Below are positions 8,138 through 24,408 of a stretch of 24,762 nt of DNA, piece after piece. Position 1 is the stretch's first letter. Each line of letters starts with the position of its first letter. Origin of the DNA: a virus; IMG/VR virus record IMGVR_UViG_3300034031_000056, positions 1-24,762 of that record; one strand, given 5' to 3'. The notes under the pieces were generated by a model. It saw nothing but the letters and a program-made list of their open reading frames with translations, had not been told where the DNA came from and did not search any database. Made by a program: the position numbers and the translations under genes.

Positions 8138-8574
8138 ACATCGGAGCGCCCGGCAACGCCATGATCAGAACTGGGCTTAAGGAGACTGGTGGGGTGGGTA
8201 AACAACCAAAGGAGCTGAGCGCACTTGCGAAGCGGGTGGAAGCCTTTCTCGCGGAGACGCGAATGGACCCTCAGCAATTCGGGCTTGAAGTGTTCAAGGA
8301 ACGTCACCTTGTCCGCGATCTGCGCAAGGGTCGGAACTTCGGCCCGGTATTTGAGGCGAGGATCATGGCGTATCTCAGCGCGCGCCAGTTCAAGCATCCA
8401 GAGACCGACGGCGTTTTGAAGCCGTCACTCCAAACAATGGAGAAGCACGATAGGATTGTCTGTGGTCGGATGCAGGTCGAAGCCGAAGCGCGCCGCATCC
8501 CGCTCAATGATTTGCTCGCTCAGGTCTGTCTAATGGGGTGGGCCATATATGCGTCTCAGCGGGGGCTGGATTGA
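8134..8574 (+). CDS. hypothetical protein with possible small DNA-binding motif
   Basis: A 146-residue protein. Residues about 26-75 (LAKRVEAFLAETRMDPQQFG, then VFKERHLVRDLRKGRNFGP) resemble the compact FG-x(n)-DP-LV-DLR-GR segment seen in short sphingomonad and phage proteins, which looks like a lambda-repressor-type helix pair. The C-terminal half is helical and unassigned. ATG 8134 gives the usual ATGA overlap. GTG 8128 is an alternative start closer to the strong GAGGAGGG at 8116-8123. It lies just upstream of the terminase genes, so a role in late-gene control or packaging is possible but speculative. Confidence 0.65.
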   Translation: MNIGAPGNAMIRTGLKETGGVGKQPKELSALAKRVEAFLAETRMDPQQFGLEVFKERHLVRDLRKGRNFGPVFEARIMAYLSARQFKHPETDGVLKPSLQTMEKHDRIVCGRMQVEAEARRIPLNDLLAQVCLMGWAIYASQRGLD

Positions 8575-11218: not shown

Positions 11219-11409
11219 TGGATGATCGTTGGCTTTCGAACAGGTATTTTCGAGCACTTTCCGATGCCGAACTCCACGCCGGCTATACGCCTGACGGCCT
11301 GTTCCAGCGAGGAGTGAATTGCGGGAGAGCGTGGCGAGAGATCAAGCGTCGCGCGGCCTGTCGTCCCCGGCAACTCGATCAGCCTCCGCAGTTGCCTACG
11401 CCGCCTTAA
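11215..11409 (+). CDS. small hypothetical protein after terL
   Basis: A 64-residue protein beginning MMDDRWLSNRYFRALSDAEL. GGAG-like bases and an ATGATG overlap with the terL stop support this start. The C-terminus is basic then proline-rich (PPQLPTPP). No family is recognised; a small virion or packaging accessory is the likely context. Its stop codon TAA forms the left edge of the repeated TAAGGAAATC element, ending the gapless operon that began at 3432. Confidence 0.6.
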   Translation: MMDDRWLSNRYFRALSDAELHAGYTPDGLFQRGVNCGRAWREIKRRAACRPRQLDQPPQLPTPP

Positions 11410-11442
11410 GGAAATCCAGACCCACGCTAGTTTCCCGCCATG
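11407..11442 (+). promoter_or_regulatory. repeated element copy 1: TAAGGAAATC-N9-GCTA, then ATG
   Basis: TAAGGAAATC lies at 11407-11416, GCTA at 11426-11429 and ATG at 11440. The same arrangement recurs at 18056 and 22147, in each case filling one of the few intergenic gaps. No ribosome-binding site is close to the ATG, so a promoter whose transcript starts near the ATG is proposed. Confidence 0.5.
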
Positions 11443-11463
11443 CTCAAGCGGGATGATCATTGA
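11440..11463 (+). CDS. possible 7-codon leader peptide (MLKRDDH)
   Basis: The ATG placed by repeat element copy 1 opens a 7-codon frame whose TGA (11461-11463) overlaps the start of the next gene (TGATG). In the two other copies of the element, the ATG at the same place starts a real gene. Coupled reinitiation is therefore plausible; expression is unproven. Confidence 0.3.
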   Translation: MLKRDDH

Positions 11464-11669
11464 TGTGCGGCTCGTTGCTCCAGAAGCTAAGCCCGGCGGC
11501 GGCTATCGGCGGGAAAAAGGTTGGGATCGGCGCATTGAGCCCAGCTGCTCTCGCCGTTTCGATGCTCACTAAGAAGAAGAAGCCTCAGCAGTCGGCGGCG
11601 GCCGCTGGCGGATCGCCTGCCGCTAGCTTCATGGGCGTGGCACCCAAGTCCACGCTGGGCGGCGCCTGA
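11463..11669 (+). CDS. small virion-module protein, MCGS N-terminus (first of pair)
   Basis: A 68-residue protein starting MCGSLLQKLSPAAAIGGKK, with an alanine-rich hydrophobic middle (ALSPAALAVSML), a lysine cluster and a tail ending APKSTLGGA. Both ends echo the next protein (MCGS start, K-T-TLG end), and the first 13 bases around the start (TGATGTGCGGCTC) are identical in the two genes. Proteins of this kind sit beside the portal gene in short-tailed phages and are presumed minor virion components. There is no good Shine-Dalgarno, so translation may depend on the upstream leader frame. The Cys at position 2 might be modified; this is speculation. Confidence 0.6.
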   Translation: MCGSLLQKLSPAAAIGGKKVGIGALSPAALAVSMLTKKKKPQQSAAAAGGSPAASFMGVAPKSTLGGA

Positions 11670-11884
11670 TGTGCGGCTCCGCGCTCTTCGGCAAGCCGCC
11701 CAAGCCGGTGATGCCTGCCCAGTTCCAGGATGCGAAGTCGCCGGAGTACGACGCGCGCGGCCGTTCCGGGCAGCGTGAAGCCCGTCGCCGCGGCTTCGCC
11801 AGTTCGATCCTGATGGCGATGCAAAAGGGCGCGCTCGTCCCGCCCGCCACCACTGCCAATCAGATGAAAACGACCCTCGGCTGA
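11669..11884 (+). CDS. small virion-module protein, MCGS N-terminus (second of pair)
   Basis: A 71-residue protein starting MCGSALFGKPPKPVMPAQFQ. Its plan of short Cys-Gly start, proline-rich segment, RRRGFASSILMA and an end of MKTTLG resembles a small phage family I recall with endings like RRR-x-SSTIL...KKTLLG, encoded next to portal or tail genes. The role is unknown, but it is probably a virion-associated or assembly protein. The start overlaps the previous stop (TGATG) and the end overlaps the portal start (TGATG). Confidence 0.7.
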   Translation: MCGSALFGKPPKPVMPAQFQDAKSPEYDARGRSGQREARRRGFASSILMAMQKGALVPPATTANQMKTTLG

Positions 11885-13623
11885 TGCCGGACAGCTCCTC
11901 CCCCGCAGGCACTCGCCGCGCGTTGACGCTGAGGGAGCATTGCGACCTCCGTTCGCGTCGCATGAAGGCGGAGCGGGAGGACTACGATCCTGTCTATTAC
12001 GAGATCGCCACCTATGCCGCGCCGGCACGATCGCGCTTCAATCACAACAACCAGGTGCCGAGCCGCAAGAAGCGGGCTCGAGCCCATACGCTGTACGACG
12101 GCCATGCGATCGGCGCCTTCAACATCCTCTCGGGGGGCATGACATCGGGCCTTTCCAGCCCCTCGCGCCCGTGGTTCCGCTTCGCACTTCCCGATCCCGA
12201 CTTGATGAAGTTCTGGCCGGTGAAGGTCTGGCTCGCCGATGTCGAGCGCATCATCTACGATTTTCTCGGCAAAACGAACTTCTACACCGCCGTGAAGAGC
12301 GGCTATTCCGAACTCGGGCTGTTCGGCACCGAAGCGATGTTCATGGATGAACATTGGAACTCGGGCATCGTGTTCTCCACCATGACCGCTGGCGAATATT
12401 ATCTCGCCTGCGGCGATGATCAGCGCGTCGATACCCTCTGCCATCATGTCCCCATGACGGTTCGCCAGATCGTGCAGCGGTTCGTCGCCGATCGCTTCGA
12501 CAGCCACACGATGCACTGGGATCGGGTCAGCCGCACAGTGAAGCAGCTGTGGGACAATTCGAACGACGATACGACGGTGCAGGTCATGCGCCTAGTCGAG
12601 CCGAACCCAGCCTATGACAGCTTCCGCGGCGACGCGGACGGTAAGCGGTTCCGTTCGCTCTGGTGGGAGTGCGGCAACGATAACAAGACCGCTATCCTCA
12701 GCAAGAGTGGGTACGAGGAACAGGCGTTCGTCGGCGCTCGGTGGCAGACCATCGGCAACGACACCTACGGCTCGGGACCGGGCTGGAACGCGTTGCCCGA
12801 TATGCGGGTGCTGCAAGTGCAAGCGAAGCGCCTTGGCGAGCTGACGGACCTCCTAGCTAAGCCGCCGGTGGTCGCCCCGGTAGGAACTCGGGTGAAGCTG
12901 ACTCCCGGTGCCGTGACCTATGCTGCCCAAGTGGACATGGCTGGCGTGAAGCCGCTGTTCCAGGTCGACGGGCAAGCAATCGATCGCGTCGAACAGACGA
13001 TGGCCAGGCTGTACGGCAAGATCGACACCGCTGCTTTCGCCGACATCTTCATGGCGATCACGCAGATGGACGGCGTTCAGCCGCGTAACCAGGAAGAGAT
13101 TTTCGCGCGTAACGAGGAGAAGCTGACCCAGCTTGGCCCGGTGGTGGAACGCGTATCGACGGAGAAGCTGAAGGTCATTCTCGACCGCGTGTTCTATGTT
13201 TTGGAGCGCCGCGGCGCATTCCCCGAGCCGCCGGAAGAACTGGACGGCATCAAGCTGTCGATCGAGTTCATCTCGACGCTCGCCCAGGCTCAGCGGATGA
13301 TCGGCCTCAGTCAGGTCGAGCGGGTGGTCGGCTTCGTTGGCAACCTCGCTGAGTCGTTCCCTGAAGCGGCTGACAACCTCGATCCCGACGCGCTGGTGCA
13401 TGAATACGCCGACCGCGCGGGCTCGCCTCCGAAGATCATGCGCGATCCTGCCGCCGTCGATGAACTGCGGCAGCAGCGTCAAGCCAGCGAGGCTGAAGCA
13501 AAGGCTGCCGCTATGATGCCGGCCGTCAAGCAGGCGGCGGACGGTGCCCAGCTGCTGTCCGAGACGCCGATCAACACCGGCGAGCCGAACCTGCTCGATA
13601 CATTGATGGCAGGCACAGCGTGA
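11884..13623 (+). CDS. portal (head-to-tail connector) protein
   Basis: A 579-residue podovirus portal of the head-tail connecting protein family (T7 gp8-like), which would form the dodecameric DNA gate at one capsid vertex. Landmarks are the N-terminal helix rich in R/E (LTLREHCDLRSRRMKAERED), the clip-proximal IATYAAPARSRF, the conserved LYDGHAIGAFNILSGGMTSG followed by SSPSRPWFRF, and YSELGLFGTEAMFM. The later FADIFMAITQMDG and GPVVERVSTEKLKVILDRVF match the family's stem and tunnel-loop regions. The last 80 residues are helical and Ala/Gln/Glu-rich. Length is close to T7 gp8. It overlaps neighbours by TGATG and GTGA. Confidence 0.93.
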   Translation: MPDSSSPAGTRRALTLREHCDLRSRRMKAEREDYDPVYYEIATYAAPARSRFNHNNQVPSRKKRARAHTLYDGHAIGAFNILSGGMTSGLSSPSRPWFRFALPDPDLMKFWPVKVWLADVERIIYDFLGKTNFYTAVKSGYSELGLFGTEAMFMDEHWNSGIVFSTMTAGEYYLACGDDQRVDTLCHHVPMTVRQIVQRFVADRFDSHTMHWDRVSRTVKQLWDNSNDDTTVQVMRLVEPNPAYDSFRGDADGKRFRSLWWECGNDNKTAILSKSGYEEQAFVGARWQTIGNDTYGSGPGWNALPDMRVLQVQAKRLGELTDLLAKPPVVAPVGTRVKLTPGAVTYAAQVDMAGVKPLFQVDGQAIDRVEQTMARLYGKIDTAAFADIFMAITQMDGVQPRNQEEIFARNEEKLTQLGPVVERVSTEKLKVILDRVFYVLERRGAFPEPPEELDGIKLSIEFISTLAQAQRMIGLSQVERVVGFVGNLAESFPEAADNLDPDALVHEYADRAGSPPKIMRDPAAVDELRQQRQASEAEAKAAAMMPAVKQAADGAQLLSETPINTGEPNLLDTLMAGTA

Positions 13624-13994
13624 GCAACGGTGTCCGGGAGCAGCAGCAGAAGGAAGACATGATCCTTTTGATGGGCCGGCCGGAGTTCCGCCGGACCCTA
13701 TTCAGGATAATCGAAGAGGCGGGTATATTCTCTTCTGCCGCTGGGTCCGAAGAGCGCTCCCTTTCTGCGAGAGAGGGGCGGAGGAGCCTGGGGTTAGACA
13801 TCCTTCGCTGGGCCGAGGAGGCACTGCCCTCCGCCGCGCACCCAAGCAGCATCCCCGTGATCACGATGATGTCCGCGCTCCGCGAAGAAGTTCAACCACA
13901 GGAGGAATCGAATGGCCGGCGAGGCAGAAGTTCAAGAACTGACACAGACGGAGACCCAGACGGCGGAGACCGCGGGCTCTTCGAGCGAGGCTGA
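13620..13994 (+). CDS. Bbp19-like phage protein
   Basis: A 124-residue protein starting at GTG in a GTGA overlap with the portal stop. Residues about 15-70 (ILLMGRPEFRRTLFRIIEEA, GIFSS, then REGRRSLGLDILRWAEEA) match the pattern of small proteins related to Bordetella phage BPP-1 Bbp19: LM-x-P-x-(G/F)RR, EAG(V/I)(F/Y), EG-RN-GL-LL. The role is unknown but it lies between portal and scaffold genes in such phages. The final 28 residues, from SNGRRGRSS on, read the scaffold gene in another frame: the gene runs 83 bases into the scaffold ORF and past its ribosome-binding site. That tail is probably unconserved. Confidence 0.72.
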   Translation: MSNGVREQQQKEDMILLMGRPEFRRTLFRIIEEAGIFSSAAGSEERSLSAREGRRSLGLDILRWAEEALPSAAHPSSIPVITMMSALREEVQPQEESNGRRGRSSRTDTDGDPDGGDRGLFERG

Positions 13995-14646
13995 GACCGG
14001 CACCGCTGCTGCCACCGAAGGCGCCGAAACGGCGACCGGCGGCGATGAGGCGACGGCACTCGGCAAGAAGCCTGAGGCGGAAGGTGACGAAGAGGGCAAG
14101 GAGGGCGCCGACACTGGCGCCGCCTCCATCCTCGGCGCGCCGGAAGCGTACGAGATCAAGCCGCCGGAAGGACGCGAGTTTGACCAGGAAGTGTTCGATC
14201 TCGTCGCCGACGATCTGAAGGGCATGGACCTCTCCAATGAGGGCGCTCAGCGCATCGTTGACCTGTATGCCGAGAAGGTTCTCCCAAAGGTGGAGGAGCG
14301 GATGCTCGCGCAGGTGCAGGAGCAGAGCCAGCTTGCCACCGCCCAGTACCGCAAGGACTGGCTGGATGCTGCCAGGGCTGACCCTGAAATTGGCGGCGCG
14401 AAGTGGGACGAAAGCCTGCACCTCGCCGCCAAGGTGTTCGACACGGTTGGTATGAAGGTCAGCGACCCTCTGCGGGTGCTGCTGGAAGAAAGCGGCCTCG
14501 GCAATCACCCCGATTTCATTCGCTACCAGCGCCGTGTTGCGCAGCTGATCGGCGAAGATCGCACCGAAGCTGGCGATGGTCAGCCCGGCGGCGCGCGCAC
14601 CGGCGCGCTGAGCCTCTATTCTGACGAATTTCAGCCAAAAACGTAA
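13912..14646 (+). CDS. capsid assembly scaffold protein
   Basis: A 244-residue acidic protein fitting podovirus scaffolds. Residues 1-70 are disordered Glu/Thr/Ala/Gly-rich (such as TQTETQTAETAGSSSEAETG). After them come KPPEGREFDQEVFDLVADDL and VDLYAEKVLPKVEERMLAQV, then helices ending in a short basic-acidic tail (SLYSDEFQPKT). Scaffolds guide capsid protein into procapsids and are then removed. The order portal, Bbp19-like, scaffold, capsid supports the call. AGGAGG ends 6 bases before the ATG, the strongest ribosome site in the neighbourhood, consistent with high expression. The HslV-like peptidase upstream is a conceivable partner for its removal, by inference only. Confidence 0.85.
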   Translation: MAGEAEVQELTQTETQTAETAGSSSEAETGTAAATEGAETATGGDEATALGKKPEAEGDEEGKEGADTGAASILGAPEAYEIKPPEGREFDQEVFDLVADDLKGMDLSNEGAQRIVDLYAEKVLPKVEERMLAQVQEQSQLATAQYRKDWLDAARADPEIGGAKWDESLHLAAKVFDTVGMKVSDPLRVLLEESGLGNHPDFIRYQRRVAQLIGEDRTEAGDGQPGGARTGALSLYSDEFQPKT

Positions 14647-14658
14647 GGAGACTGAACG

Positions 14659-15693
14659 ATGCCTGCTCGCAATGGAACCGTCGCAACCCTTGTGGATGTG
14701 ACCGCCGGCTACGGCGAGGATGGCGCCTCCCAGGGCACCATCGCGGAAATCCTGACCAAGGAGAACGCGATCCTCGAAGACATGACCTGGAAGGAAGGCA
14801 ACCTCCTGACGGGTGAACGCACCTGGGCCCGCACGGGCAAGCCGGGGGTCGCATGGCGCCGTTACAACCAGGGCGTTCCCCGCTCGAAGGGCACCGCCGG
14901 CTCCGTGGATGAAGCCTCGGCGCAGCTCGCCGCCACGTCGCAGATGGATCGCAGCCTTGCCATCCTCGGCGGCAACCCGGCGCAGGCCCGCGTCAACTTC
15001 GCCAAGCCGTTCTTCGAAGCGATGAACGACGAGATGTCGGAGACCGTGTTCTACGGAAACTCGTTTTACGAGTCGAAGGAGTTCACCGGCCTGGCGCCGC
15101 GGTACAATAGCTTCGCGGGTCCGACGGGCGACTACATCATCGATGCCGGCGGCACCGGCAACGACAACCGCTCGATCTGGGTGGTGAACTGGGATCCCGA
15201 AGCGATCACCGGCATCTTCCCCAAGGGCTCTAAGGCCGGTCTGCTCCACATGGACATGACCAAGGGTCGCGAAGCTGGTCCGGACGGCTGGCCGGTGGGT
15301 GACATCGTGCATGACGAAGCCGGCAACGGCTACCCGGCATATACCGATTACTTCCAGTGGGACGCCGGTCTCGCTGTGAAGGATCACCGCCACGCCGTCC
15401 GCATCGCCAACATCGACTTCTCGCTGTTGACGAAAGATCGCAGCACCGGCGCCGATCTCGAAGACCTGCTCGTGCAGGCGATCGAGCGCATCAAGGCGAC
15501 CGGCAGCAACGCCGCGATCTATGCGCCGAAGCCGCTCAGCGGCATGCTTCGCCGTCAGGCCCTGACCGATACCCGAGCCGGCCGCGGCTTGCTCGGCTTC
15601 GACCAGATCGGCGGTCGCCGCGTCACCGTCTTCGACGGTCTTCCCATCCGCCCAGTCGACGCCCTGAACGTCGATGAAGCCCGCGTCGTCTAA
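14659..15693 (+). CDS. major capsid protein
   Basis: A 344-residue coat protein of the BPP-1 Bbp17-like type, expected to have the HK97 fold. Features include an N-terminal arm (TLVDVTAGYGEDGASQGTIA, then EILTKENAILEDM), the long helix region (AQARVNFAKPFFEAMNDEMS) and later strands around YAPKPLSGMLRRQALTDTRA and FDQIGGRRVTVFDGLPIRPV. The position after the scaffold and before a cement protein agrees. TAAGGAGA, whose TAA is the scaffold stop, lies 15 bases before the ATG. That stop/ribosome-site fusion recurs before the next two genes. There is no sign of an N-terminal pro-domain cleavage site. Confidence 0.9.
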   Translation: MPARNGTVATLVDVTAGYGEDGASQGTIAEILTKENAILEDMTWKEGNLLTGERTWARTGKPGVAWRRYNQGVPRSKGTAGSVDEASAQLAATSQMDRSLAILGGNPAQARVNFAKPFFEAMNDEMSETVFYGNSFYESKEFTGLAPRYNSFAGPTGDYIIDAGGTGNDNRSIWVVNWDPEAITGIFPKGSKAGLLHMDMTKGREAGPDGWPVGDIVHDEAGNGYPAYTDYFQWDAGLAVKDHRHAVRIANIDFSLLTKDRSTGADLEDLLVQAIERIKATGSNAAIYAPKPLSGMLRRQALTDTRAGRGLLGFDQIGGRRVTVFDGLPIRPVDALNVDEARVV

Positions 15694-15705
15694 GGAGAGA
15701 TCGAC

Positions 15706-16146
15706 ATGAACACCGACAAGGAACTGCTCGCTTCCGAGAAGCAGGCGCTTACCGCCACCGCCGTCTCGACCGATTCCATCATGGTTTCTGGTCTGTCCGG
15801 CCTCGACCGGGGCTCGCGATTGCGCGCCTTTGCCCAGCTGGAAACTGCCCTCACGGGCGGCACCGGCACCGGCGTCACGGTGGAAATCATCCAGGCGGAC
15901 AACGCCGCCCTGACGCAGAACGTGGAGTCTCTTTTCTCCACCGGGGTCAAGGCGAACGGCACTAATACCGCCGCTGGCAGCCGCCTCGTGGACGTGCCGA
16001 TCCCGGCCTTCACGAAGCCCTACGCCGGCTTCCGCTACACCATGGCTACCGGCGCTTACGCGGCAGGTGCCATCACGGCGGGCTTCGTCGTCGGCACCGA
16101 AACGCCGCAGGCAACTCGCCCGCTGGCGGAAAGCCACGGCTTCTAA
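15706..16146 (+). CDS. Bbp16-like capsid cement (decoration) protein
   Basis: A 146-residue protein resembling the capsid cement protein family of BPP-1 (Bbp16), which forms jelly-roll units stabilising the head exterior. Visible features are the short helix start (DKELLASEKQALTATAVSTD), a central RAFAQLETALTGGTGTGVTV strand pair, VDVPIPAFTKPYAGFRYTMA and a C-terminal AGAITAGFVVGTE. It lies directly after the capsid gene, as in BPP-1. It begins with the TAAGGAGA stop/ribosome-site fusion 15 bases before the ATG. Confidence 0.82.
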   Translation: MNTDKELLASEKQALTATAVSTDSIMVSGLSGLDRGSRLRAFAQLETALTGGTGTGVTVEIIQADNAALTQNVESLFSTGVKANGTNTAAGSRLVDVPIPAFTKPYAGFRYTMATGAYAAGAITAGFVVGTETPQATRPLAESHGF

Positions 16147-16158
16147 GGAGAGAATGAC

Positions 16159-16599
16159 ATGGCCGAAAAAGTAGTCACCAAGAAGTCGTTCATCGGCGGC
16201 CGTATCGTCCTTCCGGGCGAAGTCGTGGATGTGGACGCCAAGGGCGAACTGGCACCGGCGGCTTCGACGCCGATCGGCGCTCTCACCGTCGATCAGCTGC
16301 GTTCCGCGCTCAATGCGCGGGAGTCGAGCGAGAAGGGCGAACAATTCGGCGGCAACCTCGCCGATCGCTCCGACGCATCGACTGGTTCTCAGCCGCTCGA
16401 AATGGCTCGCGTCGCGCCGGCTTCGGCCGGTTCGACGGCTCCGCAGGGCCTTCCGCCCGGCACCGAGCCCCACGGCGAGTCCTTCTTCCGTCCTGCGTCG
16501 GAAGGCGCGGAAGCGGCGGTGGAAGAAGTCGTTGGCGCTGAAGCTGCCGCACCGGCAGCGAAGCCCCGGCGTCGCGCCAAGGCCGGCGACAAGGGCTGA
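16159..16599 (+). CDS. hypothetical virion-module protein
   Basis: A 146-residue protein. Residues 1-35 (MAEKVVTKKSFIGGRIVLPG, EVVDVD) form a small strand-rich motif seen at the start of some minor head or neck proteins. The remainder is Ala/Pro/Gly-rich and probably disordered, ending in a basic tail KPRRRAKAGDKG. The start is the third TAAGGAGA fusion, 15 bases before the ATG. No firm family is recognised. A strong hairpin follows the stop codon. Confidence 0.65.
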   Translation: MAEKVVTKKSFIGGRIVLPGEVVDVDAKGELAPAASTPIGALTVDQLRSALNARESSEKGEQFGGNLADRSDASTGSQPLEMARVAPASAGSTAPQGLPPGTEPHGESFFRPASEGAEAAVEEVVGAEAAAPAAKPRRRAKAGDKG

Positions 16600-16605
16600 A
16601 GAAGT

Positions 16606-16641
16606 AGAGACGGGCGCTACGCCCCCATGGCGCCCGTCTCT
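16606..16641 (+). terminator. strong 12-bp hairpin after the capsid genes, possible terminator or attenuator
   Basis: AGAGACGGGCGC (16606-16617) pairs perfectly with GCGCCCGTCTCT (16630-16641) around a 12-base loop. There is no T run, so it may be a partial terminator, a pause or an RNA stabiliser. A competing small hairpin GGGCG-CTA-CGCCC (16612-16624) uses part of the left arm and the loop. Confidence 0.6.
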
Positions 16642-16660
16642 GCACCAGAAGGAATAGAAC

Positions 16661-16948
16661 ATGGCGAAGCTGCGGATTTGGGAATCGGTGCGTGGGGCAA
16701 GCGGACTTCCGCTCGTCCGGCTCGATGATCGAGTGAATTACCAGGAGGTGACGTTCAGCGGCGCAGCCGCGGCCTCTGCCGCCTTTGACGCCGACACAAG
16801 CGTAATTTCGGTTCTTGCAGACGTAGCATGCGCCGTGAAAGTATCCAGCGATCCCACCGCCGACATCAACAGCTTTCCTGTGCCAGCAAATACCAGGATC
16901 GACTTCGAAGTGACGCCGGGCTCTAAGATCAGCGCGATTGCAGCCTGA
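16661..16948 (+). CDS. small hypothetical virion-module protein
   Basis: A 95-residue protein beginning MAKLRIWESVRGASGLPLVR, with alternating small and hydrophobic residues suggesting a compact beta fold (SVISVLADVACAVKVSSDPT). GAAGGAATAG lies 5-14 bases before the ATG. It is the first gene after the strong hairpin and is coupled to the next by TGATG. Small beta proteins in this place in podoviruses are often decoration or neck components, but no family is recognised. Confidence 0.65.
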   Translation: MAKLRIWESVRGASGLPLVRLDDRVNYQEVTFSGAAAASAAFDADTSVISVLADVACAVKVSSDPTADINSFPVPANTRIDFEVTPGSKISAIAA

Positions 16949-17538
16949 TGGTTCTTGGTTCTCTTGGCTGCCTTGGCCTCAATCTAGGCCCTCGCTCAGG
17001 CGGTGCCGCGGTGGTTCCCCCGGCGCCGTATGCGTTGTTCGATCCCGAAGCGAACGCATCTGTTGCAAACCCGACTTCTGCCGGCGGCGCTGCTACCATT
17101 ACTAAGACCGGCGACACGGGCGGTTATGACGGCCGCGCCCAATCGTGGGACGTCATGCCGCCGAACTTCCTCGCCCGGTTCCGCACCACCGTTGATGACG
17201 GCGTGTTCTATCTTGGTTGGGCAGGTTCCGGAGCGACGGGACCGAGCGATTTCGAGTGGGCAGTCGCGATCGATGCCAGCATTGTTTATTGCGAAAGCTA
17301 CCAGAAGGGCAGCCTCGCGTTCGGCCATGGCGCAGCGGACTCCAGCACCCTTCGTGTTTTCGTCCGGCGGTTGAATGGCGAGTGGACCGTCTGGACCAAG
17401 GACGGCAGCGACGATTTCGCCGGGGCGGTTCTACGCCACACCTACAACGACAGCGGCATCGACACGAACGCCTTCTACGCAACGGCCTTGCTTGCGACGC
17501 CTGGTATGGCTGCTGAGGTAAGCATCACCGCCCTTTAA
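16948..17538 (+). CDS. hypothetical beta-rich virion-module protein
   Basis: A 196-residue protein. Its start, MVLGSLGCLGLNLGPRSGGA, is a Gly/Leu-rich segment of a type common at the N-termini of phage structural proteins. Then comes a beta-rich domain (about 35-196) with WDVMPPNFLARFRTTVDDGV and WAVAIDASIVYCESYQKGSL, which reads like a concanavalin- or SPRY-like sandwich. Such domains can bind glycans or decorate virions; neither is shown. It overlaps the previous gene by TGATG. A 52-base gap follows. Confidence 0.6.
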   Translation: MVLGSLGCLGLNLGPRSGGAAVVPPAPYALFDPEANASVANPTSAGGAATITKTGDTGGYDGRAQSWDVMPPNFLARFRTTVDDGVFYLGWAGSGATGPSDFEWAVAIDASIVYCESYQKGSLAFGHGAADSSTLRVFVRRLNGEWTVWTKDGSDDFAGAVLRHTYNDSGIDTNAFYATALLATPGMAAEVSITAL

Positions 17539-17590
17539 GCGCATCCCATAAGCCGGCGACCCGCTCAGCGGACCTGGCAAGGAACAAACT

Positions 17591-18058
17591 ATGCCGCCAT
17601 TTCAAGAACCTCAAATCGCCACTGCGGCGCCAGTTGTCGGGGACGGATGGGAATACAGCCGCTTGAACGGTCCGTTCTCCACCCTCTCAACCGGCACCCG
17701 CAACATCGGCCTCGGCTTCATCCCTCTACCTGAAACGGATTACGAGTTCGAAGCGTCGCTTTCGGTCATTCGGGCCGGCGAGGGACTGCCGATCATCGCG
17801 GTTTCTTGGGGAACTGGCATGCTCAACGGGGGAGCGGCGAAAATTGCAGGCTCGAGCCATCCTCTGGGGGCCACCGTTGGCGCTGCCGAAGCCGTGATCG
17901 ATCAGCCAAAGAATGTAACTGGGTTGGTGCATATCACCGGCCTGGTGCGGGCGGGGCACAGCCCGCAGGCAATCAACCTTCAAGTCGCTTCGCAAGCCAA
18001 GAACGAAGAGGTGATCATCGGCGACCTCTCGTTTCTGCGCTTCCGAGCCGTCCCTTAA
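17591..18058 (+). CDS. hypothetical virion-module protein
   Basis: A 155-residue protein beginning MPPFQEPQIATAAPVVGDGW, beta-rich throughout (TDYEFEASLSVIRAGEGLPI, GDLSFLRFRAVP). A good AAGGAAC lies 7-13 bases before the ATG. No family is recognised, though the pattern of short strands suits a fibre, decoration or carbohydrate-binding module. Its TAA stop begins the second copy of the TAAGGAAATC element. Confidence 0.6.
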   Translation: MPPFQEPQIATAAPVVGDGWEYSRLNGPFSTLSTGTRNIGLGFIPLPETDYEFEASLSVIRAGEGLPIIAVSWGTGMLNGGAAKIAGSSHPLGATVGAAEAVIDQPKNVTGLVHITGLVRAGHSPQAINLQVASQAKNEEVIIGDLSFLRFRAVP

Positions 18059-18091
18059 GGAAATCGGCGCCTTCGCTATCGAAGTGCCATG
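18056..18091 (+). promoter_or_regulatory. repeated element copy 2: TAAGGAAATC-N9-GCTA, then ATG
   Basis: TAAGGAAATC at 18056-18065, GCTA at 18075-18078 and ATG at 18089, with the same spacing as copy 1. CCTTAAGGAAATC (13 bases) is identical in copies 1 and 2. Here the GCTA lies in the loop of a small hairpin CTTCG-CTAT-CGAAG (18071-18084). Confidence 0.5.
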
Positions 18092-18742
18092 GCCCTCAGC
18101 AAAGTCCAAATCGCGAATATGGCGCTGGCCGAAGTGCCGGCGTCCCGCATCTCTGGCCTAGACGAAGACAGCATCGAAGCCGGTCACGTCCGCGTTCATT
18201 ATCAGCCTTCGCTGGAACTCCTGCTGGAAGCGCACGATTGGGATTTCGCGATAAAGCGTATCGTCCTCGCGGCTGTCGCGAACGATCGGCCGGACGAGCA
18301 TGGCTCCGCATTTCAGCTTCCGGCAGACGTTGCGTCGCCGCGCCGCCTTGTGCCGAGCGCTACCGCCGCCGGCCTCGTCGCGCCGGGGGTCCCCAGCGTC
18401 CGCTCGGCGTTCTCGGCTGGGCTGGATGAGATGCTGACCATCTACCCCTACACCATCGCCGCCGGGAAGCTTTACACCGACCTTGATGGGGCGACGCTGG
18501 AGTATGTCTCCAACAACGTCAGCGAAAGCGCCTTCCCGGCGCTTTTCGCCCGTGCCCTCGGCCTGGAATTGGCAACGCGGCTGGTCTCGCCCATCAAGCA
18601 GGACACCAAGCGGCAGGACTATATTCGTGGAATGGCTGAGGTCGCCCGCGAACGCGCGATCGCCGACAACATGAACCGCCAGCCGCGCCAGCAATATGGC
18701 TTCGCGTCGGAGGAAGCGCGGGCTCGGGCGCTGGATTACTGA
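18089..18742 (+). CDS. tail tubular protein A-like head-tail adaptor (T7 gp11-like)
   Basis: A 217-residue protein with the typical gp11-type start: QIANMALAEVPASRISGLDE, then SIEAGHV, then YQPSLELLLEAHDWDFAIKR. This corresponds to the CNLAL-x-x-(I)G...S...A..C...Y...R..LL..HPW.FA pattern of the family. The protein links the portal ring to the nozzle. The C-terminus is helical (LATRLVSPIKQDTKRQDYIR, RERAIADN). No Shine-Dalgarno is near the ATG, and the start lies 14 bases after the GCTA of repeat element copy 2. It overlaps the next gene by one base (ATGA-type TGATG). Confidence 0.88.
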   Translation: MALSKVQIANMALAEVPASRISGLDEDSIEAGHVRVHYQPSLELLLEAHDWDFAIKRIVLAAVANDRPDEHGSAFQLPADVASPRRLVPSATAAGLVAPGVPSVRSAFSAGLDEMLTIYPYTIAAGKLYTDLDGATLEYVSNNVSESAFPALFARALGLELATRLVSPIKQDTKRQDYIRGMAEVARERAIADNMNRQPRQQYGFASEEARARALDY

Positions 18743-19410
18743 TGACGTTCCGGGTCGGCCTCCACAACTTCAGCAAGGGCGTTCTCTCCGACGAACTGCA
18801 GGGTAGGCAGGATGTCGCCGCCTACAATGCGGGCATGAAGCGGTGCGAGCATGCCTACATCCTGAAATACGGGGGCATTGCCGGGCGGCCGGGAACGCGG
18901 GTGGTGTACGAGACGGAGACAGCGAACGTACGGCTGGTGCCTTTCGAGGTGTCCGACATCCAGAATTACATGATGCTGTTCGAGCAGGCGTCGATGAAGC
19001 CGATGACGCTGGGCGGCATGGTTCTGGAGCAGGAGCTGGTAATCACCGGCATCACCCGCTCCAATCCGGCTCAAGTCACGGTCGCCTATCATGGTCTTAG
19101 CGCCGGGGACGAGGTGTTTATTGGCGACCAGCTTGGCATGATCGAGGTGAACGACCGCATCTGGAAGGTGCTGGAGGTCACCGGCGTAAACACCTTTACG
19201 ATCGACGCCGACAGTTCGGCATTCGGCGTCTGGACAGGCAACGTAGGCGGCGCAGTGAACCCTGGACCACCGCCTCCGCCGCCTTCACCGCCGCCTGAGG
19301 TGCCGCCACCGCCGCCGCCACCGGTCCCCCCAGCGGTTGGCGGCAACTACCCTGCTTACGGGAACTGGAAAGGTCGCGATATTCTGCACCCTGATATGGA
19401 GGTGCCGTAA
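18742..19410 (+). CDS. tail nozzle protein (gp12-like), N-terminal part of a split gene
   Basis: A 222-residue protein equal to the first part of T7 gp12-type nozzles. FSKGVLSDELQGRQDVAAYN and GMKRCEHAYILKYGGIAGRP-GTR are the usual start. Residues 95-165 form an inserted domain (ITRSNPAQVTVAYHGLSAGD, VFIGDQLGMIEVNDRIWKV, then FTIDADSSAFG-x-W) that I know from many phage tail proteins, where it is often annotated as E1 FCCH-like. After GG the chain enters a polyproline run (about 174-194) and ends HPDMEVP at a TAATG. The remaining nozzle domains begin in the next ORF, so the pair together (820 residues) matches one nozzle protein. Confidence 0.82.
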   Translation: MTFRVGLHNFSKGVLSDELQGRQDVAAYNAGMKRCEHAYILKYGGIAGRPGTRVVYETETANVRLVPFEVSDIQNYMMLFEQASMKPMTLGGMVLEQELVITGITRSNPAQVTVAYHGLSAGDEVFIGDQLGMIEVNDRIWKVLEVTGVNTFTIDADSSAFGVWTGNVGGAVNPGPPPPPPSPPPEVPPPPPPPVPPAVGGNYPAYGNWKGRDILHPDMEVP

Positions 19411-21206
19411 TGGGGGTCCGCCGCCTATACAAAGCCCCGATGCCTTTTAATGCGTCGGAGCTGCCGCAGATCGATTTCGCGCAAGCGTTCGATACCGTCT
19501 ACACCGCGCATCTGAACCATGAGCCGGGCAAGCTTCAGCGGTACAGTCATACCGACTGGCGCTTCACGTCCCTGACATTCGGCTCCGACGTGCCGCCGCC
19601 TGGCGACGTGGCTGCGCTGGCAACGACCCCCAACACGGACGCCGCGAACTCAGGTGCCGCCTACTTCCCTCAGGAAAGCAGCTACGTCGTAACTGCGGTC
19701 AACGAGGAGACGGGGCAGGAGAGTCTGCCGTCCACCGCCTCTGTCGTGATCAACGACCTGACGCTGAAGAAGAACTATACGACGGTCTCCTGGTCGGCTG
19801 TGACGGGGGCGAATTATTACCGCGTCTACAAGCGCCGCAATCAGGGCGAATATGGTCTTGTCGGTCAGACAGAGCAGCTCACCTTCCGCGACGACAACAT
19901 CATTGCTGACCTGACGGATGGCCCGCTTCAAGGCCGCAATCCGCTTACGGGCGAGGGCAACCGGCCCGCCACCGTCTTCTTCTTCGATCAGCGGCTGGGC
20001 TATGCCTGCACCGCGAATAATCCGAACGGCATGTACCTGTCCCGCTCCGCCGACTTCGAGAATATGGATGTCGCGCGGCCGGTGCGGGCGGATGACGCGA
20101 TCTCCATTCGGCTGGTGGCGGAGAAGGTTAACGCCATCAATCAAGTCCTCCCGATGGACGATCTACTTGGGCTGACCTCGACGGGGATCTTCGTCATCCG
20201 GGGGTCGAATGATGATTACCTGTCCGCCAACCCGCCGCCCAAGTCCCGCCGGCGGTCGGCGCGCGGCGTGTCGCGGTTGAAGGCCATCACGATCGACACG
20301 GTGGCGCTCTACACTCTCGATAGCGGAGACGGCGTTTACTCGCTCAGCTATTCCCTAGAGCAGGACGGGCAGAAGTCGGCCGACGTGTCTGTTTTCTCAC
20401 CTCACCTCTTCGAGGGCTTTCGCATCCACAGCTGGGCCTATGCCGAGAAGCCTCACTCGATAGTCTGGGCAGCACGCTCAGACGGGAAGCTGCTGTCCTT
20501 TACTTGGGAGCAGGACCAGGAAGTCTGGGGTTGGACGGGCCCGCACGACATGGGCGGGTTCGTCAATTGGGTTGCCGCGGTTCCGGAGAACGGTGAACAC
20601 CGTGTCTACCTTTCGATCACGCGCAACTTCGGTGGCGAGGCCCGCCACTTTATTGAGCGCATGGCGTCGGTCAGGGTGCCGGAAAACGCCGCGCTGGAAT
20701 GCTACCTCGATTGCGCGGTCAGTCAGCAATTCGAAACTCCCACGAAGACGATCCCCAACCTTCACCATCTCGAAGGGCGGACGGTAAGTGTTTTGGCCGA
20801 CGGGGACGCTTATGCCGATAAGCTTGTGCAGAACGGCGAGGTCACTCTCGAACACGAAGTGACCATTGCCACTGTCGGGTTGCCGTACGTTGGTAAGGTG
20901 GAAACCCTGCCGGTTATCTACCCCTCGCAAGGCACCAATGCCGGCAAGCCTCAGTCACTGGGTCAGGTGGCGCTGAAGGTGGTGAAGACACGAGGCCTCA
21001 AGGTGGGACGCCGGGAAGCTGAGATGTACGCGCTTCGTGCGCGCGAAAACGAAAATATCGGGACTCCCACCGACAGGGTGACCGGCACCTTCAATGCCGC
21101 CGTCGAACCTGTGCAGTCCGGGGGAGCCTCCCTCATCATCCGACAGGAGAAGCCTTTTTCATGGCGCGTGACCTCGGTCTTTCTCGATCCTGTGCTGAGC
21201 GGGTAA
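19410..21206 (+). CDS. tail nozzle protein (gp12-like), C-terminal part of a split gene
   Basis: A 598-residue protein that starts in the middle of the nozzle fold. RRLYKAPMPFNASELPQIDF followed by AQAFDTVYTAHLNHEPGKLQ corresponds to the TPY...DL..L.FAQSAD...HP...P..L.R segment of intact homologues. A fibronectin-like domain (about 90-170) follows, then FFFDQRLGYACTANNPNGMY, FVIRGSNDDYLSANPPPKSR and EQDQEVWGWTGPHDMGG, standard nozzle landmarks. The C-terminus (PFSWRVTSVFLDPVL) ends as full nozzles do. ATG overlaps the first part's stop (TAATG), so reinitiation probably supplies both chains. The end overlaps the next gene by 46 bases. Confidence 0.87.
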   Translation: MGVRRLYKAPMPFNASELPQIDFAQAFDTVYTAHLNHEPGKLQRYSHTDWRFTSLTFGSDVPPPGDVAALATTPNTDAANSGAAYFPQESSYVVTAVNEETGQESLPSTASVVINDLTLKKNYTTVSWSAVTGANYYRVYKRRNQGEYGLVGQTEQLTFRDDNIIADLTDGPLQGRNPLTGEGNRPATVFFFDQRLGYACTANNPNGMYLSRSADFENMDVARPVRADDAISIRLVAEKVNAINQVLPMDDLLGLTSTGIFVIRGSNDDYLSANPPPKSRRRSARGVSRLKAITIDTVALYTLDSGDGVYSLSYSLEQDGQKSADVSVFSPHLFEGFRIHSWAYAEKPHSIVWAARSDGKLLSFTWEQDQEVWGWTGPHDMGGFVNWVAAVPENGEHRVYLSITRNFGGEARHFIERMASVRVPENAALECYLDCAVSQQFETPTKTIPNLHHLEGRTVSVLADGDAYADKLVQNGEVTLEHEVTIATVGLPYVGKVETLPVIYPSQGTNAGKPQSLGQVALKVVKTRGLKVGRREAEMYALRARENENIGTPTDRVTGTFNAAVEPVQSGGASLIIRQEKPFSWRVTSVFLDPVLSG

Positions 21207-21643
21207 AGCTGGTTCCGGCGTCGGCGGCGCATGTTGGCCGTATCGCAACACGGATGCGAGACGCCGATCGCGCTGAAGTTCGAGCCCTCGGCCATACGCC
21301 GAAGCAGGCGCTTCGACTGGCGCTTGTCGGTTCAAGCTGGGCTGTCACCGCTATGATCAACGGCTCGCCGCATGGCATGTTTGGGGTGACGCCGGTTGCG
21401 CCCTGGAAGGGGGAGCCGTGGTTTCTCGGCACAAACCTCATCTATCAGGAGCGGCGAGCGATGCTGGTGCTTGGGCAACGGGCCGTTGATCAGATGCAGG
21501 CGCAATTCAGTAAATTGGGGAATGTCGTATCAGTCCACAACGAGCGAGCGATCCGCCTCCTGGAGCGGTGGGGATTTACGGTAGGAGCCGACGTGCAGGT
21601 AATCGGTGATCTGGAGTTTCGGCAGTTCTGGAGGGCGCGCTGA
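21161..21643 (+). CDS. GNAT-fold virion protein (T7 gp13-like)
   Basis: A 160-residue protein. From about residue 15 it follows the GNAT acetyltransferase plan: VKLVPASAAHVGRIATRMRD, then ALVGSSWAVTAMINGSPHGM-FGV, then NVVSVHNERAIRLLERWGF, the last being the classic N-x-x-AIRL-x-x-x-GF. Phage proteins of this type occupy the T7 gene 13 position before the gp14-like gene and are needed for virion assembly. A canonical acetyl-CoA loop (Q/R-x-x-G-x-G/A) is not clear, so catalysis is doubtful. AGGAGA lies about 10 bases before the ATG, inside the nozzle gene. A TGATG overlap leads into the next gene. Confidence 0.78.
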   Translation: MARDLGLSRSCAERVKLVPASAAHVGRIATRMRDADRAEVRALGHTPKQALRLALVGSSWAVTAMINGSPHGMFGVTPVAPWKGEPWFLGTNLIYQERRAMLVLGQRAVDQMQAQFSKLGNVVSVHNERAIRLLERWGFTVGADVQVIGDLEFRQFWRAR

Positions 21644-22149
21644 TGTGTGGTCCTGCGGCACTCGCCATCGCCGGCGCGGCTATGACTATCGGCGGGCAGA
21701 TTACCGAAGGCGTCGGCGCCGCCCGCCAGGCCGGGTACGAAAGCAAGGTCGCCAAAATCAATTCAGGCTTGGAGTCGGAACGCGCTCGTGATGCGATCGT
21801 GCGGGGCGAAGAACAGGTTCGCATCTTCCAGAACAAGGCAGGGCAGGAGCGCGGGGCGATGCGCGCGGCGATGGCCGCGAACGGCATCGATCTGGATTAC
21901 GGCTCCGCTTCCGACGTGCTGGGTGATCAGGCTCAGAACGCGGCTGAGGACGCGGCAGCGCTAACCCACAATTCCGAGCGCGAGGCGATGGGTTTCCGTC
22001 AGTCTGCGGCGAATTGGGCAGGGGAAGCGGCGGCGGCGAAGGCGCGCAAGCGAGGCGCGATTGTAGGCACTGTCTTCAAGGTGGGCGCCACGGCGCTGAG
22101 CTCGGCGTCTCAGGTCGGCAAGATCAACGCTGCCAAGAAGGCCGGCTAA
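21643..22149 (+). CDS. internal virion protein B-like (T7 gp14-like), MCGP N-terminus
   Basis: A 168-residue helical protein. It begins MCGPAALAIAGAAMTIGGQI, a hydrophobic Ala/Gly helix that could insert in a membrane, followed by long amphipathic helices (SKVAKINSGLESERARDAIV, RGEEQVRIFQNKAGQERGAM) and a late DLDYGSASDVLGDQA. This is the plan of gp14-type internal proteins, which are ejected into the host envelope at infection. The C-terminal AIVGTVFKVGATALSS is a second hydrophobic segment. The Met-Cys-Gly start is shared with two small proteins upstream of the portal gene. It is coupled to the GNAT-like gene by TGATG. Confidence 0.82.
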   Translation: MCGPAALAIAGAAMTIGGQITEGVGAARQAGYESKVAKINSGLESERARDAIVRGEEQVRIFQNKAGQERGAMRAAMAANGIDLDYGSASDVLGDQAQNAAEDAAALTHNSEREAMGFRQSAANWAGEAAAAKARKRGAIVGTVFKVGATALSSASQVGKINAAKKAG

Positions 22150-22185
22150 AGGAAATCCGAAGAGGCCCTATCGTCCCTGACCATG
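22147..22185 (+). promoter_or_regulatory. repeated element copy 3: TAAAGGAAATC-N9-CCTA, then ATG
   Basis: GGAAATC at 22151-22157 and CCTA at 22167-22170 keep the 16-base start-to-start spacing of the other copies. ATG follows at 22183, two bases further than in copies 1 and 2. There is no ribosome-binding site next to the ATG. Confidence 0.45.
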
Positions 22186-24408
22186 CCAACGGTCAGTATT
22201 TCCGAGCGCCGCATCGATCAGCGTGGCCTAAGTCAAGAGAACGCCCGTGCCGCCGACATGACGGCGGGTACGCGAGCCATCGGTCAAGGCATGCAGGAAC
22301 TGGGTGCTGAAGGCTCTCAGGCCGCCCAAGTTTGGGACCGCATCAAGATCGAGCGCGACGAAACGGACGCAAAGCGCGCGGACGTTTCGGCTGCTCTGAC
22401 CTTGAACAAGCGCATGCGGCTTGACCCAGACGCCTTCCTGAACCGCCGCGGCGCCAATGCGCGTGACCTTACCACCGCCGCCGCAACCGACTTCGATACT
22501 ATCAAGCAAGAGGCGCTGAAGTCGCTGCCGTCCAAGCGCTCTCGCGAGATGTTCGGACAGATTTTCGACCAGCGGGCGGCCAAGGAGCTGACGGTAATCA
22601 GCGGGCACGAAGTCGAGCAGGTGCGCGTTGATAAAATCGAGACGGCCAAAGCTGGCGCTCAGTCGTTTGCCGGCCTCGCCGTCGATAGCAGCAACGACCC
22701 GGAAGCCTTTCGGAAGATCCTTGCCGATGGCTTCAGTGAATATGACACCTTAGCGACGGCTGAGGGCTGGAGCCCTGGGCGCCTCAAGCAAATGAAGGCT
22801 GATTACGTCTCCTCGATTCACCGGCGCGTGGCTGAGAAACTTCGCGCTGGGGATCCCCGCGCTGCTGAAGATTGGCTGAATACCAACGCCGCCGAAATCA
22901 GCGACAGCGACGAAACGGCTATTCGCGAAACCTTGGTGCCGGGCTTGGAAGAGGCCCAATACGAAGACGACATGTTGGCGGTAGACGGTGCGATAAAGGA
23001 TGCACCGCCGCCACCTGCGGAGACACCTGCTCCCTCAGCCTCCGGCGCCGCTGAGACGCCGGCAGCTACTCCGGCAGTCGCCTTCAAGCCCGCCATGATC
23101 ACGCGCCGGGGAACCCAAGGTCAGACAGCGGCTCAACATCGCGCTCGGGGAAGTCAGAACGGCGTCGATATTCCTGCCCCGATGGGCGATCCCGTCTACC
23201 CGCCGATCGATGGCGTGGTGACACAGGTCATCCCGGACAACGGCGGCGACGGCGGCAATCAGGTGATCGTGCGCCACCCTGACGGCCGCGTGACGGGTTA
23301 CGCTCACCTTTCGAAGATCACGGTGAAGGTGGGTGACCCGGTGGGGCAGGCCCGCCCAATCGGAAACGTCGGCTCTACCGGCCGCTCCAGCGGGCCGCAC
23401 GTCCACTTCACGGTTCGGGTGAACGGTGAGAAGGTTGATCCAGCTACGCAGAAGTTTGGCGGCGCGACTGGCACGGGTGAGCCGGTCACGCGCTACACCG
23501 CCAAGCTGGACAACACTCAGGCCCTTTACGACACCGCTCACCGGCTTGCCGTTGATCAGGGCTGGTCCACGAAGCGCTACGAGCGAGTGCTGCGCGGGAT
23601 CGACGCCCGCGCCAACCGAAACCAAGCTCTCTTGGCGGATCAAGAGCGGCTGGCGTCTCGCGAGGCGGCGGAGGTTATCGAGAAGCTTGGCCCCGGCGGT
23701 CTCACAAGCGTGAAGCAGATGGGCGAGGTCTTTCACCGCCTCCCGCCAAGCGAGCGTGTCTCGTACCTTGCCCTGATTGCGCAGAACACTGCGCCGAAGG
23801 AGCCCGAGTTCGATCCTGCCTTTGTGCTTGAACTGTCCGACCAGCTTGCCACCGATCCCGCAGGCTTCGCCGCTCGTGACGCCGCTGCTGACCTAGCGAG
23901 GCTGCCGAAGGGGTCGCAGATGACCTACATCGGCTGGCGCCGCTCAGCACTCGGTGAAGGCGGTAAGGATGGCCCCGCCGGCAAGGTGCCGAAACAGATC
24001 GATCACAGCAAGATCATCAACGTGTCCAAGCCGCTTCTTGATCTGGCGATGCCGGTTTCGAAAAGCCCGAACAAGAAGGTCGCTGAACAGGAGAATGCTG
24101 TTCGGGCGCGCCGGCTGCTGAGCTTCCGCACCTCCATGTCGGAGCAGCTTGCGGAGTTTGAAAGGGCGAACAACCGCCCTGCCGGCGACGACGACATTTT
24201 CAAGATGGCGTCGCGCCTGCTGACGGAGGTCCATTACCAGGATGGAAGTCAGGCGTTCGCCTACGAGCGCCCGCATGCACGGGGCGACGTTCGCATCCCC
24301 GCGGCAGAGGAGCGGCGCATCCAAAGCGACTACCTGACGCGCTTCGGCGAAGCACCGACGCGCGCTGAGGTGGTGCGCATCTGGTTTGACAGCGGATTGG
24401 GGCGCTAA
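22183..24408 (+). CDS. internal virion/ejection protein with degenerate M23 (LytM-like) peptidase domain
   Basis: A 741-residue protein in the T7 gp15 position. The N-terminal 280 residues are helical (ERRIDQRGLSQENARAADMT, KSLPSKRSREMFGQIFDQRA). A Pro/Ala-rich linker (270-305) leads to an M23 endopeptidase domain (about 318-420), with GVDIPAPMGDPVYPPIDGVV, YAHLSKI and SSGPHVHF. Catalytic His375 and His406 and zinc ligands Asp329 and His408 are present, but the first zinc ligand is Gln325 in QNGVD where the family has His. The long C-terminal part is helical. Such proteins are ejected and open the peptidoglycan for DNA entry; activity here is uncertain because of the lost ligand. The start follows repeat element copy 3 without a ribosome-binding site. 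Confidence 0.85.
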   Translation: MPTVSISERRIDQRGLSQENARAADMTAGTRAIGQGMQELGAEGSQAAQVWDRIKIERDETDAKRADVSAALTLNKRMRLDPDAFLNRRGANARDLTTAAATDFDTIKQEALKSLPSKRSREMFGQIFDQRAAKELTVISGHEVEQVRVDKIETAKAGAQSFAGLAVDSSNDPEAFRKILADGFSEYDTLATAEGWSPGRLKQMKADYVSSIHRRVAEKLRAGDPRAAEDWLNTNAAEISDSDETAIRETLVPGLEEAQYEDDMLAVDGAIKDAPPPPAETPAPSASGAAETPAATPAVAFKPAMITRRGTQGQTAAQHRARGSQNGVDIPAPMGDPVYPPIDGVVTQVIPDNGGDGGNQVIVRHPDGRVTGYAHLSKITVKVGDPVGQARPIGNVGSTGRSSGPHVHFTVRVNGEKVDPATQKFGGATGTGEPVTRYTAKLDNTQALYDTAHRLAVDQGWSTKRYERVLRGIDARANRNQALLADQERLASREAAEVIEKLGPGGLTSVKQMGEVFHRLPPSERVSYLALIAQNTAPKEPEFDPAFVLELSDQLATDPAGFAARDAAADLARLPKGSQMTYIGWRRSALGEGGKDGPAGKVPKQIDHSKIINVSKPLLDLAMPVSKSPNKKVAEQENAVRARRLLSFRTSMSEQLAEFERANNRPAGDDDIFKMASRLLTEVHYQDGSQAFAYERPHARGDVRIPAAEERRIQSDYLTRFGEAPTRAEVVRIWFDSGLGR

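Follow-up and report, generated by a model that had tools for sequence, protein, structure and literature searches.

The window analyzed here is the whole 24,762-base stretch of an IMG/VR provirus fragment, which contains integrase, replication, terminase, portal, capsid and tail genes beside a tRNA-Tyr gene (865-950), and which includes neither the 3' part of the phage with the tail-fibre region nor the host genome. The virion genes are distant relatives of those of epsilon15, phiV10 and BPP-1, and the phage is epsilon15/BPP-1-like. The host is probably an alphaproteobacterium, and probably a sphingomonad. Searches of viral contigs with the portal and M23 proteins gave no match, and the same was true for gp11 and portal in genome contigs. 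The segment 865-2557, with the tRNA-Tyr and then an integrase-like gene on the other strand, is a probable attachment site. Between the capsid and tail genes (16600-16640) lies a strong inverted repeat (AGACGGGCGC...GCGCCCGTCT) that has no T-run and may be a terminator or attenuator. Three late proteins of the window (11463, 11669 and 21643) begin with Met-Cys-Gly (ATGTGC/ATGTGT), and their relatives begin with Met-Cys.

Three late gaps of the window share the element GGAAATC-N9-SCTA, which had been described in the initial annotation as a repeated promoter-like sequence. The pattern matches the window exactly three times, always on the plus strand, at 11410, 18059 and 22151, compared with a mean of 0.00 matches in dinucleotide shuffles of the window, and the reversed pattern used as control did not match the window at all. 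The 13-base stretch reported as common to copies 1 and 2 (CCTTAAGGAAATC) is indeed identical in both and differs at two positions in copy 3, and in a shuffling of the late gaps 0 of 2000 sets reached the 15 matched columns observed. The three copies are confirmed as real, exact, co-directional and absent elsewhere in the record; this window-specific form rests on three sites in one record. A sequence with one mismatch (GGAAGTC-N9-CCTA, 24244-24275) lies within the M23 gene, and an ATG follows its T at 13 nt; it has no CTTAAG, opens only a short frame and is possibly due to chance.

Each left block overlaps the stop codon that ends the gene before it (TAA at 11407, 18056 and 22147). The block had been taken simply as a block longer than a usual -35, but it is better resolved into two parts, a hexamer at the -35 position (CTTAAG, CTTAAG and CTAAAG in copies 1, 2 and 3) exactly 17 bp before the -10 and the sequence GAAATC, conserved within the spacer at -29 to -24. 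Despite the 17-bp spacing these hexamers fail a TTGACG-like -35 criterion, and a strict E. coli-style sigma-70 scan gave no match. The right box reads GCTA in copies 1 and 2 and CCTA in copy 3 and resembles the start of the -10 element of Caulobacter RpoD promoters, for which the boxes TTGaCgS and GCtANAWC have been defined (PMC8144410); the matches past these four bases are weak (GCTAGTTT, GCTATCGA and CCTATCGT). The T of the TA dinucleotide was counted as -12, which sets +1 at T+12. The coordinates of all features are given in Table 1.

Table 1. Predicted promoter elements and associated genes in the window.
Feature	Position	Strand	Remarks
Copy 1, CTTAAG at the -35 position	11405..11410	+	17 bp before -10; overlaps preceding stop codon
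Copy 1, GAAATC spacer block	11411..11416	+	-29 to -24
Copy 1, -10-like GCTAGTTT	11426..11433	+	T of TA at 11428 = -12; predicted +1 at 11440; consensus GCtANAWC (PMC8144410)
Leader hairpin TCCCGC/GCGGGA around predicted +1	11433..11453	+	Start at 11440 would remove the 5' arm
Predicted leaderless 7-codon frame MLKRDDH	11440..11463	+	TGATG overlap: possible translational coupling
Short Met-Cys-Gly protein gene	11463..11669	+	First gene past promoter copy 1; portal two genes on
Copy 2, CTTAAG at the -35 position	18054..18059	+	Overlaps stop codon TAA 18056-18058
Copy 2, GAAATC spacer block	18060..18065	+	
Copy 2, -10-like GCTATCGA	18075..18082	+	T at 18077; predicted +1 at 18089 = A of start codon
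gp11-like tail gene, predicted leaderless mRNA	18089..18742	+	Most close relatives have the ATG at T+12/13
Copy 3, CTAAAG at the -35 position	22146..22151	+	Overlaps stop codon TAA 22147-22149
Copy 3, GAAATC spacer block	22152..22157	+	
Copy 3, -10-like CCTATCGT	22167..22174	+	T at 22169; predicted +1 near 22181, ATG at +3
M23 peptidase / ejection protein gene, leaderless or near-leaderless mRNA predicted	22183..24408	+	TGTGCA-dialect copies at same position: L211:16040 (ATG at T+12), L210:14778 (T+11)
Candidate dialect-specific late regulator, 146 aa	8134..8574	+	Directly upstream of terminase small; role inferred from slot shared with DnaA-C/winged-helix proteins

The distances of 14, 14 and 16 bases between element and ATG given in the initial annotation are correct when counted from the S of SCTA. 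In our numbering the gp11-like gene starts at T+12 and the mini-frame of copy 1 likewise, and the M23 gene at T+14, not T+12. Two of these codons open virion genes as proposed, namely the gp11-like gene (18089) and the M23-peptidase gene (22183; PF01551, E 6e-28). The ATG of copy 1 (11440) opens only the 7-codon frame MLKRDDH, whose stop codon overlaps the ATG of the short Met-Cys-Gly protein at 11463 (TGATG). The reported lack of a nearby ribosome site holds for all three ATGs: no Shine-Dalgarno sequence is found at the usual spacing, and TAAGGA is located about 25 nt or more upstream.

To compare these gaps with those of related phages, we collected records with a 73-81% identical capsid protein and added more in two later searches. 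The comparison set consists of 15 records with related late genes, the window included; the records are related and the counts are not independent. The idea that GGAAATC itself is conserved had to be rejected, as it is absent at the homologous gaps; taken alone, this absence would speak against the proposal, but other left boxes are found there. Promoter-like elements are present in the equivalent late gaps of the 15 records with one left box type per record, and they fall into three mutually exclusive dialects. Nine records use TGTGCR-N28/29-TA, written out as TGTGCA followed by exactly 29, sometimes 28, bases and TA; five records with 19 sites use GATTCAA-N18-TA, written out as CGATTCAA, exactly 18 bases and TA; and C(T/A)AAGGAAATC-N11-TA is restricted to the window. 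A sixteenth record (G015, locus L047) fits none of them. The spacing between left and right box is fixed within each dialect, and all three share the Caulobacter-RpoD-like right box. The conserved box lies at -47 to -42 in the TGTGCR dialect and at -37 to -31 in the GATTCAA dialect, and, like the window copies, those of the GATTCAA dialect carry a hexamer 17 bp ahead of the -10, at the -35 position (TTCAAG, TTCAAC).

A scan of 16 records for GATTCAA-N17-19-TA showed that all 19 matches have N18, lie on the late-gene strand and are confined to five records, and the reversed control had 0 matches. Among about 170 other loci of more distant relatives, which also lack the dialect factors, the element occurs at one site. 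Taken with loose ends, the TGTGCR pattern also gives chance matches. TGTGCA-dialect sites are located before the M23-position gene in G017 and G018, that is at the place of window copy 3. In both the TGTGCR and the GATTCAA dialect, sites also occur inside the gp13-like coding sequence at nearby positions, and the TGTGCR sites there use the Cys codon TGT, compared with 14 TGC and no TGT in sampled late genes. These internal sites are dialect-matched and lie upstream of gp14 (L015:13555, L017:12535, L019:15283, L021:16852 and L205:13357; L044:16885 and L140:15489).

Only three copies are present in the window, and one could suspect functionless short repeats due to chance or shared ancestry; but the shuffles gave 0 and the relatives keep a function-like spacing with a different sequence, which makes this explanation practically negligible. 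An effect at the RNA level was the alternative offered in the initial annotation. In this case the stop-overlapping TAAGGA would be folded to the ATG and serve as ribosome site, or the element would be a processing or attenuation site. TAAGGA matches the anti-Shine-Dalgarno sequence, TAAGGAG ribosome sites at normal spacing exist in other gaps of the window, and copy 2 can form a hairpin between TAAGGA and the ATG; against this, the three copies fold differently, the same gaps of the relatives have neither TAAGGA nor GGAAATC and carry other boxes with fixed spacing instead, and variable spacers of fixed length point to recognition of DNA. A stop-proximal ribosome site with hairpin bypass was rejected as well because of the different folds of the copies. 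We consider an RNA-level element quite improbable as the primary function; hairpins seem to form a second layer at the first promoter of a set.

The position of the right box relative to the genes supports the assumption that SCTA is used as a -10 and that transcription starts at the ATG, although there are no transcript data. At 22 of 59 sites in the 15 records an ATG opening at least 50 codons is located at T+11-13; when every TA dinucleotide of these records is taken, the proportion is 1.9%. The T+12 hypothesis was formed on L015-L021, L004, L018, L044 and L047. Among the gp11 genes collected later, those of L205, L142 and L212 start at T+12, in L212 without a left box there. Others do not follow the rule: in L211 the TA is at T+10, L210 has CATGGT instead, and L138, L140, L143 and L145 do not obey it. 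Because ATGs of long frames are found at T+11-13 and +1 is expected at T+12, mRNAs from these sites should be leaderless or nearly so, an inference which depends on the -10 position. In Caulobacter, leaderless mRNAs are frequent and efficiently translated, with 375 genes described (PMC4117421). Among phages, the cI mRNA of lambda is a leaderless message of a regulatory gene (PMC9031893); the likeness is that the 5' nucleotide belongs to the start codon, whereas here virion genes at several promoters per phage are concerned.

A leader of 27-36 nt with a hairpin is often found at the promoters that precede the Met-Cys-Gly/portal block and the tail fibre. The ribosome site is in the 3' arm; the 5' arm mostly falls between T+3 and T+14 and would be lost, wholly or in part, with a start at T+12. 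Examples of such hairpins are CCTCC-AAAC-GGAGG in G011, CCTCC-GTCAA-GGGAGG in G014 and GGGCTGC/GCAGCCC in G013. Most hairpin-led sites form a stable hairpin with the Shine-Dalgarno sequence in the 3' arm. In a folding comparison, which leaves out the P1 site of G018, a start at T+12 weakened folding from about -10 to -20 to about -1 to -8 kcal/mol, and the gain in accessibility of the ribosome site was uneven. Window copy 1 is built in this way too (TCCCGC/GCGGGA), and its ribosome site is poor. The folding suggests, without showing it, that read-through RNA is kept untranslated. A similar principle operates in T4, where read-through RNA of genes e and soc hides the ribosome site and a late start removes the 5' arm. 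T4 belongs to a different phage group with another promoter type, and hairpin control in our phages is inferred from folding only.

Terminator-like hairpins are found directly before the gp11 promoter in L015, L017, L047, L210 and L211. Like the sites before the M23-position gene and inside the gp13-like coding sequence, they add to the case for elements acting as DNA. They would also be compatible with a late antiterminator, Q-like or GafZ-like, for which the conserved block would be the loading site, with the three promoters each loading antiterminated polymerase for one segment. Moreover, GAAATC lies between -35 and -10 as do the lambda QBE and the GafZ element, and both GafZ and Q elements are known to be located there (PMC11150451). 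However, the box positions of the TGTGCR and GATTCAA dialects are better suited for an upstream activator, and antiterminators usually have one site per operon and not three to five. For the window itself this possibility is not excluded; overall we regard it as unlikely.

A box repeated at a set distance ahead of several late genes in one phage, as expected of activator-dependent late promoters, is present. Additional support for an activator comes from a gene which changes together with the dialect. In most records the distance from its end to the following start is at most about 25 nt, and in most of them the next gene is terminase small. Comparing all frames of the 15 records, a protein of about 130 aa was found in 9 of 9 TGTGCR phages and 0 of 5 GATTCAA phages, and a winged-helix protein in 5 of 5 GATTCAA phages and 0 of 9 TGTGCR phages, with 0 crossovers. 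The TGTGCR-dialect protein was assigned to DnaA domain IV by Pfam (E 8e-7, 4e-6, 5e-6 and 7e-8, only the last above the curated cutoff), by NCBIfam and by similarity to PDB 1j1v (E 8e-6), and TGTGCATAA in G001 is the complement of a DnaA box. The GATTCAA-dialect protein has a weak MarR/LexA winged-helix resemblance. In the capsid tree G007, a GATTCAA phage, and the window share one supported clade with the nine TGTGCR phages; the dialect therefore does not follow the capsid, and the regulator changes along with the dialect. This is in line with the proposal that the left block is a phage-specific recognition site, as the left box switches between phages with the regulator gene.

For the window, the assignment of the 146-aa protein (8134-8574) to this slot is a positional inference. 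The protein had no match in Pfam, PHROGs or NCBIfam and no recognised DNA-binding or DnaA-like domain, and a search in phages gave no match. Over 51 residues it is 47% identical to a Sphingomonas plasmid sequence; AlphaFold gave no confident fold (pLDDT 49), and a weak C-terminal similarity to the winged-helix group (hhalign probability 11%) is a lead only. In general, the slot gene is a candidate late activator, for which no binding data exist. The initial annotation had left open whether an activator or a polymerase is involved, and of these an activator of the host RNA polymerase is more likely than a phage enzyme. Promoters of a phage-encoded polymerase of the T7 or N4 type would explain a repeated phage-specific element with starts near genes, and T7-like ejection genes (gp14-like) are present. 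But the right box resembles the host RpoD -10, the box position differs by dialect, the shared dialect-specific genes encode small DNA-binding proteins and not polymerases, and no polymerase family was detected among the scanned window proteins, bearing in mind that the 3' part of the phage is outside the record. This leaves a phage polymerase as a very remote option.

Taken together, we consider it likely, in the absence of transcript data, that the three gaps are regulator-dependent late promoters of an epsilon15/BPP-1-like prophage, which make leaderless or near-leaderless mRNAs. Host RNA polymerase with the main sigma factor would use the SCTA(T/G) block as -10, and a phage regulator would read the conserved block CTTAAGGAAATC around the non-consensus -35 hexamer (CTTAAG/CTAAAG); use of this polymerase and sigma factor is inferred, and so is the binding, whereas the element and its spacing, the exclusive dialects, the T+11-13 placement and the link between dialect and regulator gene were established by computation. 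Transcription is predicted to start 12 nt past the T of the -10. For the gp11-like gene this is the start codon itself (18089), for the M23 gene a point 2 nt ahead of its ATG (22183), and in copy 1 the ATG at 11440, with the 7-codon leader presumably coupled to the Met-Cys-Gly protein at 11463. Read-through RNA would have no ribosome site at these genes, or a site hidden in a hairpin as at the first and fibre promoters of the relatives, and its untranslated state is again an inference. Without a usable ribosome site on read-through RNA, the genes would be translated mainly from their own late transcripts. We lean, by a small degree, towards the further assumption that the late switch is an exchangeable cassette: when the regulator upstream of terminase small (DnaA domain IV, winged helix or a third kind in the window) is swapped, the left boxes of the three to five scattered late promoters would be swapped along with it. 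The -10, the virion genes and the mode of starting, leaderless or hairpin-trimmed, would remain, and the leaderless design would silence virion genes on read-through RNA.

Compared with Caulobacter RpoD promoters (PMC8144410), the elements share the GC before the TA of the -10 and, in two dialects, a -35-position hexamer spaced 17 bp from the -10, but their -35 is far from consensus, the downstream part of the -10 is poorly matched and the left box is phage-specific. The nearest known analogues are GafA of Rhodobacter and GafY of Caulobacter, which activate gene transfer agents (PMC9638019, PMC6363796, PMC11150451); the phage elements are predicted to work like the activator-dependent promoters of these systems. 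GafA acts on gene transfer agent promoters with a DnaA-like DNA-binding domain (PMC9638019), and GafY, which serves about 18 promoters, makes contact with RpoD where the -35 is degenerate (PMC11150451). The TGTGCR-dialect proteins resemble GafA in the DnaA-like domain, which in GafA drives virion genes; in contrast, the phage protein is small and encoded beside terminase small, its box is located directly at -47 to -42, and other phages fill the slot with a winged-helix or unknown protein. As the window protein has no DnaA-like domain, we did not assign it to the GafA/GafY group. The portal, capsid and tail gene set is shared with epsilon15 of Salmonella and BPP-1 of Bordetella; in 50,697 phage records, however, no dialect regulator turned up. 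Small phage activators that serve several late promoters with a poor -35 also include P2 Ogr and Mu C. They belong to other protein families and use other box positions, and the predicted leaderless starts and the exchanged activator slot distinguish the phages described here.

In the open-access literature we found no paper joining Sphingomonas, prophage and late promoter. If our interpretation is true, a testable code would link small phage regulators to late promoters across three dialects, expression of virion genes from leaderless mRNAs would be the rule and not the exception, and the DnaA-like GafA/GafY activators would be tied to regulators still working in prophages. The joint change of scattered promoters and regulator can be tested directly with these records.

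Further sites were observed at other late genes. Dialect sites before terminase small, with an ATG at T+11 to T+15, overlap the end of the regulator gene in L017:1818, L019:2387 and L251:10681. Leaderless-type sites (T+12) of two different dialects precede another late gene (MGGPLTRGQGN / MARDVPMYRGQGN) in L020:10165 and L134:13863. Finally, in L043:11905, L069:12091, L151 and L152 gp11 is preceded by a box GTGGCATAAG/GTGGCATAAC and then by a short leader containing a ribosome site, which perhaps represents a fourth dialect.
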